Source of the DNA: an uncultured Gammaproteobacteria bacterium | GTDB taxonomy: Bacteria > Pseudomonadota > Gammaproteobacteria > Pseudomonadales > Pseudohongiellaceae | Assembly (NCBI GenBank): GCA_913054495.1 | Contig: CAJXIY010000001.1 | Coordinates: 62,001 to 126,000, forward strand | Reading direction: 5' to 3' | Length of the DNA stretch: 64,000 nucleotides | In this document: in pieces, positions 23,493 through 27,394 of the stretch | Layout: each line of letters opens with the position of its first letter | How positions within the stretch are numbered: position 1 is the first letter of the stretch | Translations under genes and position numbers: made by a program | The notes under the pieces: generated by a model | Databases searched by the model: none | The model's input: the letters and a program-made list of their open reading frames with translations, nothing else | Told to the model about the DNA's origin: nothing

Positions 23493-23628
23493 GCCCTAGT
23501 TGGACATAATCCCCTAATTGCCTAAGAGACAGTATTGGCTCATCGTTAACTCCAAGAGGAAGTGATGATGAGAAAGAAAAGCAGTGCCCAGAAGACTATT
23601 CGAGATATTCGTCGGGCCACCCGCAAAT
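23493..23628 (+). mobile_element. left end remnant of an IS3-family insertion sequence
   Basis: A good ribosome site (AAGAGGAAG) leads into MRKKSSAQ-KTIRDIRRATRK. From memory this matches the N-terminus of IS3-group OrfA proteins, which normally continue into an EEKIRIVLEGLRGE-type helix-turn-helix. Here the match stops after about 22 residues. The left boundary is set by where the permease remnant stops; I cannot identify the exact inverted repeat. Confidence 0.5.
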
Positions 23629-25184
23629 CTGCCAACTTCGCCTACCAGGCGCTGCTGTTTCAGGGCTACCGGCGGGAAAATATCTACTACCTCAATCCGG
23701 ATATGACAATCGATGCTGATGGCGACGGCATACTTAATGATATTGATGCCATCGCCAGCTCGGCAAACCTGGAAGATGCCATCCTCAACTGGGCCACCGA
23801 TCCACAAGCGCCGGCCTATGAGTTGGTGCTTTATATCGTCGATCATGGCGGGGATTCCCAGTTCCGCCTGAATGAAACCGAGTTACTGTCGGCAACTCAG
23901 TTGGATGCGTGGCTGGATGAGTTGCAAGAAGAATTGCCGGGGAAACTGGTGGTGATCTACGATGCCTGCCAATCCGGCACTTTCATTCCACAGTTATTAC
24001 CACCAGCAGGGAAAGAACGCATCGTCATGACCAGCGCCGGCGATGAAAATGCTTTCTTCATCAACCAGGATTGCTTGTCTTTCTCATTTCAGTTCTGGTC
24101 GTCGATATTTTCCGGTGGCAGCCTGTACGACTCTTTCGTGTTTGGGAAACGCATGATGCAGGAGTTTCAGACTGCACAGATCGATTCCAACGGCAACGGC
24201 ATAGCGGGGGAAAAAGCTGATAAGACACTGGCCCAGGACCTGGTGCTTGGGCGCGGTTATGTGCCGGCATCGGACAAGCCCTTCATCTCCGCAGTTTCGG
24301 CTCCCCAGATTCTGACCGATACCACAACCGCCACAATTTCTGCCTCGGGGATCATCGATGCAACGTGGATAAGTCGAGTCTGGGGAGTAATTTCCCACCC
24401 CGATTTTTCATTGGGAGATAAAGATGTTCCGGTGCTGGATGCGCCGGAGATCGAACTAACCGATGCCGATGGGGACAACACCTGGACTGGAAGCTATGAT
24501 CAATTCACTCTGGCCGGCACTTACACGATTACCATCTATGCCCTGAACAACAATGGCTTTTATTCTGCGTCGACCGACCTGCAAAGCAACACCACTACGG
24601 TGCAACAGCTAATCGGTAGCGGGGATTCCGATGGCGACGGTATCGCCGATGATATCGATGCCTTTCCATCCGACCCCAGTGAGTCTGTTGACACCGACGG
24701 CGATGGCATCGGCAACAATGCCGACTCCGACGATGACAACGATGGTGTGCCCGATTTCAACGATGCCTTTCCGCTCGATAGCACCCGGTCGAGTCATATC
24801 GGAGGCATCTCCGGCACGGGGGAAGTTACCTATACCGATGCAAGCGGCGAGATGCTGGTGCCACCGCTGCAGGCAATACTGCCCGGAGAAGAAATTACCA
24901 GCTATGGTCCCGTAACCATGAGTTATTCCCCGTCATGTGAGGGCGTCGTCTTCACCTTGACCGGTGCAGCACAAGCGGATGCCGCCTTGCTGGCAGATAT
25001 GACCGTCACCGCCGCGATTTTTGACGGCACCACCGGTGAACTTGTCATACCGCTGATAGAGGTGATCACCAGAGATATTTTTGGCACCAGCATCATATCA
25101 ATCTACACTAACGTGATAATGGAGCTGGCGCCTGACTGCCCGGGCACGTCCCTCAGAGTAACCGCAGCGACCGTGGTTGAATAG
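23565..25184 (+). CDS. chimeric ORF: IS3 OrfA start fused to C13 (legumain-like) peptidase with Ca-binding repeats
   Basis: 539 residues from the ATG at 23565 (GTG at 23562 and ATG at 23568 are alternatives). Residues 1-22 look like an IS3 OrfA start. From about 24 the chain enters mid-domain in a caspase-like C13 peptidase (NFAYQALLFQGY), with catalytic H95 in VDHGG and C136 in YDACQSG (counted from the GTG). After a beta-rich region come thrombospondin-type-3-like calcium loops (SDGDGIADD, TDGDGIGNN, DDDNDGVPD, about 350-400). The real N-terminus and any signal peptide are missing, so although the catalytic pair survives the protein is unlikely to be exported as its family is. Confidence 0.7.
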   Translation: MMRKKSSAQKTIRDIRRATRKSANFAYQALLFQGYRRENIYYLNPDMTIDADGDGILNDIDAIASSANLEDAILNWATDPQAPAYELVLYIVDHGGDSQFRLNETELLSATQLDAWLDELQEELPGKLVVIYDACQSGTFIPQLLPPAGKERIVMTSAGDENAFFINQDCLSFSFQFWSSIFSGGSLYDSFVFGKRMMQEFQTAQIDSNGNGIAGEKADKTLAQDLVLGRGYVPASDKPFISAVSAPQILTDTTTATISASGIIDATWISRVWGVISHPDFSLGDKDVPVLDAPEIELTDADGDNTWTGSYDQFTLAGTYTITIYALNNNGFYSASTDLQSNTTTVQQLIGSGDSDGDGIADDIDAFPSDPSESVDTDGDGIGNNADSDDDNDGVPDFNDAFPLDSTRSSHIGGISGTGEVTYTDASGEMLVPPLQAILPGEEITSYGPVTMSYSPSCEGVVFTLTGAAQADAALLADMTVTAAIFDGTTGELVIPLIEVITRDIFGTSIISIYTNVIMELAPDCPGTSLRVTAATVVE

Positions 25185-25202
25185 TTGGGACTGCCGCCAC
25201 CT

Positions 25203-25222
25203 GGCAAGCTAAGATACTTGCC
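25203..25222. repeat. GGCAAG/CTTGCC inverted repeat upstream of the UGSC unit
   Basis: A perfect 6-bp inverted repeat with an 8-base spacer lies just after the C13 remnant and 60 bp before the next gene. It could be a weak terminator or an operator; no T run follows. Confidence 0.25.
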
Positions 25223-25282
25223 TGTATTTACGATGTGCTACATTCCGAGGCCAGTTTTAAATAGACGGACCTGAAAGAATTC

Positions 25283-26341
25283 ATGAATAAGCTCTCGAAA
25301 TATTATGAACTCAGTGCTTCTGCTGATGTCCAGGAGTTTTACCACAGTCGTGGCTGGACCGATGGCTTCCCGATCGTGCCCCCAACTCCCGATGCCGTAG
25401 CAGCCTGTCTGGACTGGGTGAATATGTCAGCCGATGAGTTGATCGGTATTGAGCCGGTTAGAGAACGCCCCGTCATAGCAGAAAAGTTGGCAATCAACGC
25501 GGTAATGGCTGGTTGTTTGCCAGTGCATTTCCCGGCTGTGGTCACGGCATGGTCGGCGATGCTGAAGCCAGAGTTTCTATTACATGGCGCTACTGCAAGT
25601 ACGGGCGGTTGTGCAATATTAGTCATTCTCAACGGGCCAGTAAGAAAAGAGATAGCTGCCCGTAGCGACTTCAATGTTCTGGGAAGCAGCGATAGAGCCA
25701 CTTCGGTCATCGGCAGGGCTATTCGCTTGGCGCTTATTAATCTATTGGAAGTGAGTCCTGGCGCTATTGATAGATCAACCCTCGGCCACCCTGGCAAGAT
25801 AAGTTACTGCATCGCGGAAGATGAAGAAGGCACCCAGTGGCAATCCGTCGCTGAGACCAGAGATATTCCAGGCGACGTCTCAGCCGTTACCGTCTTTGCC
25901 GCAGGAGCACCGCGACAAATCATGAATGAATGGACAACGAAACCGGAAGAAATTCTCGATACCTACGCCGCAGAAATGCGAGCCAATATGCGCAATTATT
26001 CGATTTGGTCAGGCAACTATGTGGTGGTAATTCCCAAACAACATCGTGACCACCTTCAGAGTGCCGGCTGGAGCAAATCAGACGTTGCGGAATACTTATA
26101 TCGTACCGCCAGAATTAAGCGAGGCGAATGGTCTAGCGTCGGTAAGGGATCAGTAGTTCGGGGAAAGGGAGATCTCGAATACACAGCACTACCTTCTCCC
26201 GATCATCTGTTAGTAGTCGCTGCCGGCGGGCCCGCGGGTGGTTTCGGTGTGATTATTCCACCATGGCTTGGCACCAAGAGCCTGGCCGTCACGGTAGCCA
26301 TCGGTGCCTGTGTTGATTGTGCGCCGCCCGGAAACGCTTGA
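25283..26341 (+). CDS. conserved protein of unknown function, partner of the UGSC selenoprotein
   Basis: 352 residues, no clear signal peptide. Notable segments are WTDGFPIVPPT near 25-36, GATASTGGCAILVILNGP near 109-126, GSSDRATSVIGRAIRLALIN near 138-157 and a C-terminal CVDC near 344-347 that could be redox active. I do not recognise a named enzyme family. It is co-directional with the selenoprotein gene 40 bp downstream, so the two likely form a redox or thiol/selenol-handling pair. There is a hydrophobic glycine-rich stretch near the C-terminus (VVAAGGPAGGFGVIIPP). Confidence 0.8.
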   Translation: MNKLSKYYELSASADVQEFYHSRGWTDGFPIVPPTPDAVAACLDWVNMSADELIGIEPVRERPVIAEKLAINAVMAGCLPVHFPAVVTAWSAMLKPEFLLHGATASTGGCAILVILNGPVRKEIAARSDFNVLGSSDRATSVIGRAIRLALINLLEVSPGAIDRSTLGHPGKISYCIAEDEEGTQWQSVAETRDIPGDVSAVTVFAAGAPRQIMNEWTTKPEEILDTYAAEMRANMRNYSIWSGNYVVVIPKQHRDHLQSAGWSKSDVAEYLYRTARIKRGEWSSVGKGSVVRGKGDLEYTALPSPDHLLVVAAGGPAGGFGVIIPPWLGTKSLAVTVAIGACVDCAPPGNA

Positions 26342-26381
26342 GCATGGCATATGCCATGAGATAACTAATTGGAGCATGTTG

Positions 26382-26918
26382 ATGACAATTCGCGTACTTA
26401 ACCCTACCAGTGAAGCCAATCCACAAGAGATAAAACCGGCTGTGCGGCTGACAACCTTAAGAGGGAAAACTGTCGGTTTTATATCCAACGGTAAAGAAGG
26501 AACGGCTGGATTTTTTGCTCACCTGGACAGACTGTTGCGAGAGCGATATGAAGTTGCCAACGTCGTGCTGCACATGAAATCAAACTACAGTGCGCCCGCA
26601 GAACAGTCGATTATCGACGAAGTGAAAAACTGGGACCTGGCCATTACCGGGCTCGGTGACTGAGGCAGCTGTTCGTCGTGCAGTTTGCATGACGCTATTA
26701 GCAGCGAACGAATAGGCACCCCTGCGTTGGCTATAATGACCACCAATTTTGTCGGCGCTGCCGAACTCATGGCCAAGGTTCTGGGTATGCCAGACTACAA
26801 ATTTGCAGTTATAGATCACCCGGTAAGCAGCGCATCAGATGCAGAACTTGAGACGCGCGCCCGCTCTGCACTCGACTCAATTCGGGATCTGATCCTGGTG
26901 AACTCGCCGAAAACCTGA
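26382..26918 (+). CDS. UGSC-family selenoprotein (in-frame TGA at 26661-26663 read as selenocysteine)
   Basis: Reading from ATG 26382 (GGAG seven bases upstream) the frame meets TGA at 26661-26663 after GLGD and continues in the same frame as GSCSSCSLHDAIS up to TGA at 26916-26918. The TGA thus forms the U-G-S-C motif that names this family, with Sec94 and Cys97 in a 178-residue protein. Sequence on both sides of the TGA is coherent. A stem-loop that fits bacterial SECIS rules sits at the right distance (26674-26694). The family is presumed redox-active; the reaction is not known to me. Without selenocysteine machinery the gene would give only a 93-residue fragment. An ATG at 26376 is in frame but too close to the ribosome site. 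Confidence 0.85.
26674..26694 (+). promoter_or_regulatory. bacterial SECIS element of the UGSC selenoprotein mRNA
   Basis: CGTCGTGCA (26674-26682) pairs with TGCATGACG (26686-26694) over 9 bp including one G-U, with apical loop GTT. The loop begins with G and starts 19 bases after the TGA, within the roughly 16-37 base spacing known for bacterial SECIS elements that bind SelB. It lies within the coding sequence, as expected in bacteria. Confidence 0.75.
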
Positions 26919-26941
26919 CCCCAAAGGAGTTGACTTGTTGG

Positions 26942-27394
26942 TCAATTCTGCTCGGTGGCATCGCGGCCGTCATGAGGCGCGCCGGTGCCGGATGAACCCA
27001 TGAAGAACTTGCGGCCGTCCGCGAAGGTAATATCACGCCCGTTGGCGCGAGCACTGCGGTCCTTGCTCTGGTAGCCGTCGACGATGATCATCGCGCCTAT
27101 GGGAATCGAGCCGCGGGAGAGACCTCGCCGCAATAGTGTGTTCGGCGTGCCGCCTTCGACCATCCAAATCGTTTTGCTGCCGTCCTCGTTGGTAACCTCG
27201 AGGTGGATCCAGGTGTGGGGATTCACCCATTCCACCCTCACCACCGGTCCTCGCAGCACCACCGGGCGATTCGGATCGAATTCGGCGCTGAAGGCGTGAT
27301 GGGCGATAGCCGGTACGTAAGCGGCTAAAACCAGGCCCGCCAGGGCCAGCGTCGCCACACCGATTCTAAACATCACAGGGGTTTGCTTGCCCAT
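26942..27394 (-). CDS. exported DUF6152 family protein
   Basis: 150 residues: a signal peptide (hydrophobic ATLALAGLVLAAYVPAIA), then HHAFSAEFDPNRPV and VVRVEWVNPHTWIHLEV, the hallmark of DUF6152 proteins, and a late ITFADGRKFFMGSSGTG. Periplasmic; the fold is an OB-like beta-barrel in my view. The function is unknown. It is the last gene of a three-gene unit with two EYACHE-family genes, an arrangement I recall as common in environmental Proteobacteria and Acidobacteria. Confidence 0.88.
   Translation of the reverse strand: MGKQTPVMFRIGVATLALAGLVLAAYVPAIAHHAFSAEFDPNRPVVLRGPVVRVEWVNPHTWIHLEVTNEDGSKTIWMVEGGTPNTLLRRGLSRGSIPIGAMIIVDGYQSKDRSARANGRDITFADGRKFFMGSSGTGAPHDGRDATEQN

Follow-up and report, generated by a model that had tools for sequence, protein, structure and literature searches.

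The UGSC gene of the window, as we call the whole 64,000-nucleotide stretch of DNA analysed here, is directly preceded by a partner gene which accompanies UGSC genes in nearly all loci studied, and we consider it rather probable that the two encode a thioredoxin-fed selenol reductase acting like proline or glycine reductase. This reading is by analogy, and it builds on gene linkage and fusion, the co-occurrence of UGSC with selenocysteine (Sec) machinery, CxxC modules, a conserved SECIS hairpin and a distant similarity to PrdB. The initial annotation of this DNA had stopped at the UGSC gene, leaving the partner gene immediately upstream unmentioned. The features of the locus are collected in Table 1.

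Table 1. Features of the UGSC-partner locus, in window positions.
Feature	Position	Strand	Basis
Terminator-like hairpin between preceding gene and partner gene	25203..25222	+	Consensus match only
Partner gene, 352 aa	25283..26341	+	No Pfam or NCBIfam match; beside UGSC in 58/62 loci
CVDC, C-terminal CxxC tail of partner (Cys343, Cys346)	26309..26320	+	Sequence; alignment
GGAG, likely ribosome-binding site of UGSC gene	26371..26374	+	Sequence; inferred
UGSC family selenoprotein gene, 178 residues, predicted Sec at residue 94	26382..26918	+	Frame reading; PF24696 and NF041046 scores
In-frame TGA, presumably decoded as Sec94, motif UGSCSSC	26661..26663	+	Homologues align Cys (TGC/TGT) there
Bacterial SECIS hairpin, 9-bp stem 26674-26682/26686-26694, loop GTT 26683-26685	26674..26694	+	Fold, conservation, covariation, synonymous control

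The UGSC gene, its SECIS hairpin and the Sec machinery

The UGSC frame starts with an ATG at 26382, 7 nt downstream of the GGAG, runs through the TGA, continues as GSCSSC and ends with the stop at 26916-26918. In this the sequence agrees in every detail with the initial annotation, which had also expected a plain gene caller to split the gene; the ORF list indeed cuts it into 26304-26663 and 26685-26918. The joined protein reaches 163.8 bits with PF24696 (cut-off 25) in an alignment that covers residues 5-171 and spans the TGA, while its score with NF041046 lies barely above the cut-off (126 versus 125 bits). The family motif, Sec or Cys followed by GSC, is present. Thus the UGA is flanked by homology on both sides, and homologues with Cys at the place of Sec94 exist: among 65 distinct loci this codon is TGA in 61 and TGC in four. 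The Cys form of genome G277 (L052) looks broken, as its two halves are out of frame with each other and a further in-frame TGA follows the motif, and the UGSC gene of L046 is spread over two frames; both cases may be due to assembly error or decay. Protein alignments of UGSC were made without L046 and without L045, which is cut by the contig end.

The hairpin behind the TGA has the geometry described initially, with a 9-bp stem that begins 11 bases after the TGA, the loop GTT, and 19 bases between TGA and loop. It conforms to the definition of a bacterial SECIS used there and here (a stem-loop 16-37 nt after the UGA with a G in the apical loop). The RNA downstream of the TGA also folds as described: in the minimum of 26661-26712 (-19.1 kcal/mol) the hairpin is part of a longer stem, and 4 of 200 shuffled sequences fold as well. 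Within the hairpin zone the native fold is equalled or surpassed by 223 of 20,000 synonymous recodings, and of the 1,959 TGAs counted on the two strands of the window 20 are followed by a stem of at least 9 bp in the same zone; therefore the hairpin taken alone is only an event of about 1%. The Rfam search gave no SECIS match and one unrelated match below its threshold.

Codon 101, which provides the loop G, is AGT in all 58 Sec forms that code for Ser there. Three Sec forms with Thr at this residue (L072, L075, L076) lack the shared hairpin, and so do all four Cys homologues examined, in which codon 101 is TCG (three) or GCG (one). Base pairs were counted in two alignments, A7 (36 rows plus the window) and A8 (31 rows plus the window, L123 and L130), after removal of near copies and of L072, L075 and L076, the divergent Sec rows. 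The six inner pairs (columns 17-22/26-31) are formed in 34 out of 34 chosen rows, and the outer two are disrupted, one in 15 rows and the other in 12. Pair 18/30 occurs as G-U, G-C and A-U, and pair 21/27, a C-G, is inverted to G-C in L055, L123 and L130, where the protein has Trp for Cys. The covariation score of the 34 rows (0.128) is reached by none of 500 shuffles. In their number of pair types the rows do not stand out, since 77 of 500 shuffles do as well, and two-sided pair changes are only mildly unusual (32 of 500). Judged by these alignments, the window hairpin is a conserved bacterial SECIS element with a covarying core stem.

Because the homology to PF24696 crosses the TGA and the hairpin is conserved, we regard the gene as settled: by its sequence it is a gene that reads a stop signal as selenocysteine, and its protein would carry Sec at residue 94.

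The source genome contains selA (L009, 572.7 bits), selD (L010, 274.9 bits), selB in two pieces (model positions 2-342 on contig C143 and 329-580 on C151) and a tRNA-Sec with the anticodon tca, so the search proposed with the initial annotation found all four. Together with homology, RNA fold and Cys homologues this machinery supports its call of a UGSC selenoprotein gene, and neither of the two outcomes that it had named as speaking against the call was observed. In a set of 58 genomes including the source genome, 33 have both UGSC and selA, 19 have neither, three have UGSC only (G405, G414, G421) and three selA only (Fisher p 2e-9, a signal that lies mostly between genera). The window's genus contributes 32 genomes with both, three with UGSC only, none with selA only and two with neither; the corresponding numbers for the other genera are 1, 0, 3 and 17. 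The UGSC genes of G405, G414 and G421, where selA was not found, contain the TGA, and G421 is listed as 99% complete. Four further UGSC genomes came from a sample of 398 genomes of the phylum. Two of them (G139, G311) have TGA forms and selA; in the other two (G143, G277), with TGC forms, no selA exceeded the cut-off and there was one match far below it.

The partner gene and its CxxC modules

Of 62 loci, some of which are copies of one another across two genome collections, 58 have a partner homologue no more than 300 nt from UGSC and on its strand; it is upstream in 53 and downstream in five. The four loci with no adjacent partner are close relatives (L035, L036, L067, L068), and in L036 the partner is found 2.2 kb away. 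A second UGSC-partner pair is located on contig C101 of the source genome. The second UGSC copy of G139 (L094/L055) has two partner-like copies, a crotonase-like frame, a rhodanese and a weak TrxB-like match nearby. Family searches with 36 aligned partner homologues gave only stray matches, and a PDB sequence search nothing usable.

In four plasmid records UGSC and partner are fused in one frame. The Acidovorax sp. T1 fusion reads through a TGA and, by eye, continues into transposase-like sequence; that of Variovorax boronicumulans has Cys at the place of Sec; and those of Sporomusa termitida and Vibrio europaeus have Met-Gly-Thr-Ser replacing Sec-Gly-Ser-Cys, while the conserved Cys of the partner are retained. 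By their sequences, the latter two fusions suggest that the partner may be able to work without this redox centre. Fusions of UGSC are also mentioned in the part of the GOS survey considered here (PMC2398784), with an uncharacterised conserved domain named Unknown_1, which may be the partner family.

Four partner residues, Cys78, Cys176, Arg145 and Glu179, are conserved in all 43 aligned partners, including two that are fused to a UGSC domain lacking the motif Sec or Cys. The predicted partner structure (pLDDT 86.9) has no clear match in fold comparisons; its resemblance to chorismate mutase, cyclic amide hydrolases and class I fumarase is weak and gave no decisive relative. We think it unlikely that the partner itself is the catalyst, of hydro-lyase or hydrolase type, and UGSC its redox switch or activation subunit: the invariant residues, the weak resemblance to class I fumarase and cyclic amide hydrolases and the aconitase X genes adjoining both Met-Gly-Thr-Ser fusions (L128, 9317-11041; L129, 9392-11077) are in line with this, but the query-normalised TM values of the listed fold matches are 0.27 or less with a best Z of 6.9, and the Variovorax boronicumulans fusion, which is not among the 43, by eye seems to lack an equivalent of Cys176.

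As far as sequences can tell, the UGSC-partner pair carries a CxxC module in a clade-specific form, namely a C-terminal tail, a fused domain, or trxA/trxB genes nearby. The tail is present on 31 of 32 window-type partners; in the remaining one (L040) assembly error or decay has split the partner between two frames, the second of which has the tail, and three further loci of this type, outside the 32, showed no partner. Partners of a second type, to which the paralogue in the source genome belongs, have an N-terminal thioredoxin-like domain with C-P/E/H-T-C (18/18) and no tail, and the window copy is without this domain. A profile built from 17 of these domains has thioredoxins as its best matches among PDB sequences (best E 3.4e-5), and single domains match by Pfam only weakly. 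Both types form separate, supported groups in the UGSC tree (99/99 for the tail-bearing and 100/99 for the thioredoxin-fused group), which was calculated from 56 of 71 rows kept after thinning at 90% identity and in which several plasmid rows on long branches have unsure positions.

Neither module is found in 18 loci, and six of these have trxA and/or trxB nearby (L047, L048, L124, L125, L127, L130), ten no trx gene and two only a weak TrxB-like match; this tally was made after the first cases had been seen, and flank lengths differ among the loci. The gene order is trxB-trxA-partner-UGSC in Arthrobacter, and trxB-trxA is also present in a Nocardioidaceae MAG; trxA lies near the Nonomuraea copy, and trxB near the copies of Roseovarius, Variovorax SRS16 and Paracoccus. 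G143 (L096) has the fused domain plus trxB. L097, the longer of the copies of the broken locus in G277, was dropped from the module count, as its UGSC piece is short. The actinobacterial UGSC form tested has a NifU-like C-terminal extension with a CxxC (PF01106, E 2.6e-4, below the cut-off).

On plasmid pFER4 of Paracoccus ferrooxidans (L130), selA and selB stand beside the UGSC-partner pair, together with trxB and sulphur-transfer genes. In the plasmid record its UGSC gene appears as a pair of hypothetical proteins divided at the TGA.

The terminator-like hairpin upstream of the partner gene is consistent with a separate partner-UGSC unit, as judged from sequence; such matches number five on both strands of 25100-27100 versus 1.6 expected, and a sigma-70 promoter was sought at the locus and none found. 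A perfect 16-base palindrome (CATGGCATATGCCATG, 26343-26358) lies between the partner stop and the UGSC start. The ORF upstream (23562-25184, 540 aa) resembles by eye a caspase/C13-type peptidase with repeats of a calcium-binding type.

Neighbour clusters from 38 loci include crotonase-like genes in nine and CoA-transferase-like genes in six, with two members of each cluster confirmed by Pfam. A thiolase adjoins the paralogous pair of the source genome, and several plasmid copies, one of which in this neighbour reading has the partner only, lie near genes for CoA transferase, enoyl-CoA hydratase or TRAP/tricarboxylate transporters. As raw counts, these neighbours give no more than a hint of small organic acids or CoA thioesters as substrate.

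Probable relationship to PrdB, predicted fold and proposed mechanism

A HMMER scan of 35 UGSC proteins left GRDB (PF07355) unmatched at E values up to 10, and the source genome has no GRDB match. A first profile comparison with seven GRDB-type rows from Pseudomonadota was unconvincing (probability 1.5%, P 0.034). With a set enlarged from plasmid records by Bacillota PrdB proteins and one more GRDB-type protein, hhalign aligned the 43 UGSC rows with P 4.9e-5 and a probability of 68%, placing Sec on Sec and UGSC on the UGTC of PrdB. The reversed profile gave P 0.2 and two unrelated profiles 0.11 and 0.53; none of 150 column shuffles scored as high (best 31.4 versus 39.3), and with all Cys masked P was 4.2e-4 and none of 100 shuffles was as good. 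From these sequence profiles it is probable that UGSC and PrdB are remotely homologous, in a comparison that on the GRDB side covers PrdB and other GRDB-type proteins. The partner had also been considered as a PrdA-like pyruvoyl subunit. This was dropped after profile comparison, in which the partner appears unrelated to the C-terminal part of PrdA (P 0.37), to PrdD (0.19) and to PrdE (0.75).

The UGSC structure predicted from a 35-row alignment (pLDDT 91.6) is an alpha/beta model in which a strand-helix unit is repeated five times, and Sec94 sits where the third strand (86-92) gives way to helix 95-110. Such an alternating strand-helix chain differs from the thioredoxin strand order. Among the best 50 matches listed in each of two PDB fold comparisons there is neither a thioredoxin nor a selenoprotein B; the listed Foldseek matches have query-normalised TM values of 0.52 or less. 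It appears quite improbable to us that UGSC is a general antioxidant Trx-fold selenoprotein, reducing thiol-disulphides or peroxides with the partner as client or regulator: its UxxC motif occurs in many Trx-fold selenoproteins and some loci have trx genes nearby, yet the model lacks the Trx order, and a tight linkage to one partner of 350 aa would be unusual for a general antioxidant, although a Trx relative may lie beyond the matches listed.

The top match of VIA-align is a chain of the MCR activation complex (8s7v_H, Z 11.0, rmsd 3.6, 135 aligned), a complex described in PMC12176620, of which parts were considered; kinship to it was dropped, as the next match, a TIR domain, lies within one Z unit. 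This best match and the NifU-like CxxC extension of the actinobacterial form could be taken for signs of a subunit handling metal, iron-sulphur or selenium, which we regard as highly improbable in view of the TIR domain and of the listed loci, where an unsystematic look noticed no recurrent metal-handling neighbour. That the TGA is a genuine stop, a sequencing error or a decay mutation, with two short frames as the products, is hardly credible despite the short pieces called there by the annotators of two plasmid records, as in 61 distinct sequences the TGA occupies one and the same codon and is followed by a common frame, sel genes are in the genome and the hairpin is conserved.

In the thioredoxin-fed selenol reductase that we favour, SelB would decode the UGA as selenocysteine at the SECIS hairpin. 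UGSC and partner would form a complex, with UGSC as the selenol subunit, whose selenolate would attack a substrate that the partner holds or delivers. A nearby Cys of the UGSC motif would resolve the intermediate, giving a selenenyl sulphide, and the selenol would be restored by electrons passing from NADPH via thioredoxin reductase and a CxxC dithiol. In this genome the dithiol would be carried by the partner, as the CVDC tail here and, in the second copy, as the thioredoxin-like domain at the N-terminus. By analogy with proline and glycine reductase, the partner would serve as the subunit for the substrate, and electrons would enter through the CxxC module; the substrate is perhaps CoA-linked, from among small organic acids or CoA thioesters.

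A wider proposal is tentative, and we put it forward with some doubt: the selenoprotein-B reductases, known from anaerobes that ferment amino acids, may have a new branch in UGSC and its partner. The branch would be thioredoxin-driven, have small organic acids or CoA thioesters as substrates and occur in Pseudomonadota, Actinomycetota and haloarchaea, with the CxxC part (tail, fused domain, or separate trxA/trxB) exchanged between clades.

Comparison with known systems

The UGSC family has been known since at least 2008, and the window gene, being a further member, is in itself ordinary. It shares with the family as defined by PF24696 and NF041046 scores above both cut-offs, the predicted Sec in the UGSC motif and a bacterial SECIS, and no difference was found at the gene level. 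In the selenoprotein table of the GOS survey, as far as this source was covered, UGSC is the fifth most numerous family with 255 sequences (PMC2398784), and the part considered of a 2026 review counts it among selenoproteins with largely uncharacterised functions (PMC13188914). No report of the thioredoxin link, of the kinship to PrdB or, Unknown_1 possibly aside, of the partner was found in the literature considered, which consists mainly of open-access papers without supplements and includes parts of PMC2398784, PMC13188914, PMC7539508, PMC9312934 and PMC5029168. A near-constant partner, a thioredoxin link and a probable kinship to PrdB would turn an 'unknown redox protein' into a member of an assayable reaction class.

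Like the fusion to Unknown_1 in the GOS survey, the loci described here join UGSC to an uncharacterised conserved domain, a likeness in arrangement. The survey also suggested, in the part considered, a thioredoxin-like fold for UGSC (PMC2398784), from which the strand-helix repeats of our predicted model differ. Thioredoxin itself is resembled by the N-terminal domain of the second partner type, which has the CPTC and the VPT motif, whereas the window partner has its C-terminal CxxC tail instead.

With PrdB, a member of the GRDB family (PF07355) to which GrdB also belongs, UGSC appears to share the arrangement strand-Sec-x-x-Cys-helix, but UGSC proteins are missed by the GRDB HMM and the partner is unlike PrdA, PrdD and PrdE. 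In D-proline reductase, according to the part of PMC3091704 considered, the substrate is held by the pyruvoyl subunit and attacked by the PrdB selenolate, after which the mixed selenide-sulphide is re-reduced. Glycine reductase, in the same source, receives its electrons from thioredoxin reductase and thioredoxin (PMC3091704), and the CxxC/thioredoxin link at the UGSC loci may correspond to this thioredoxin feed.
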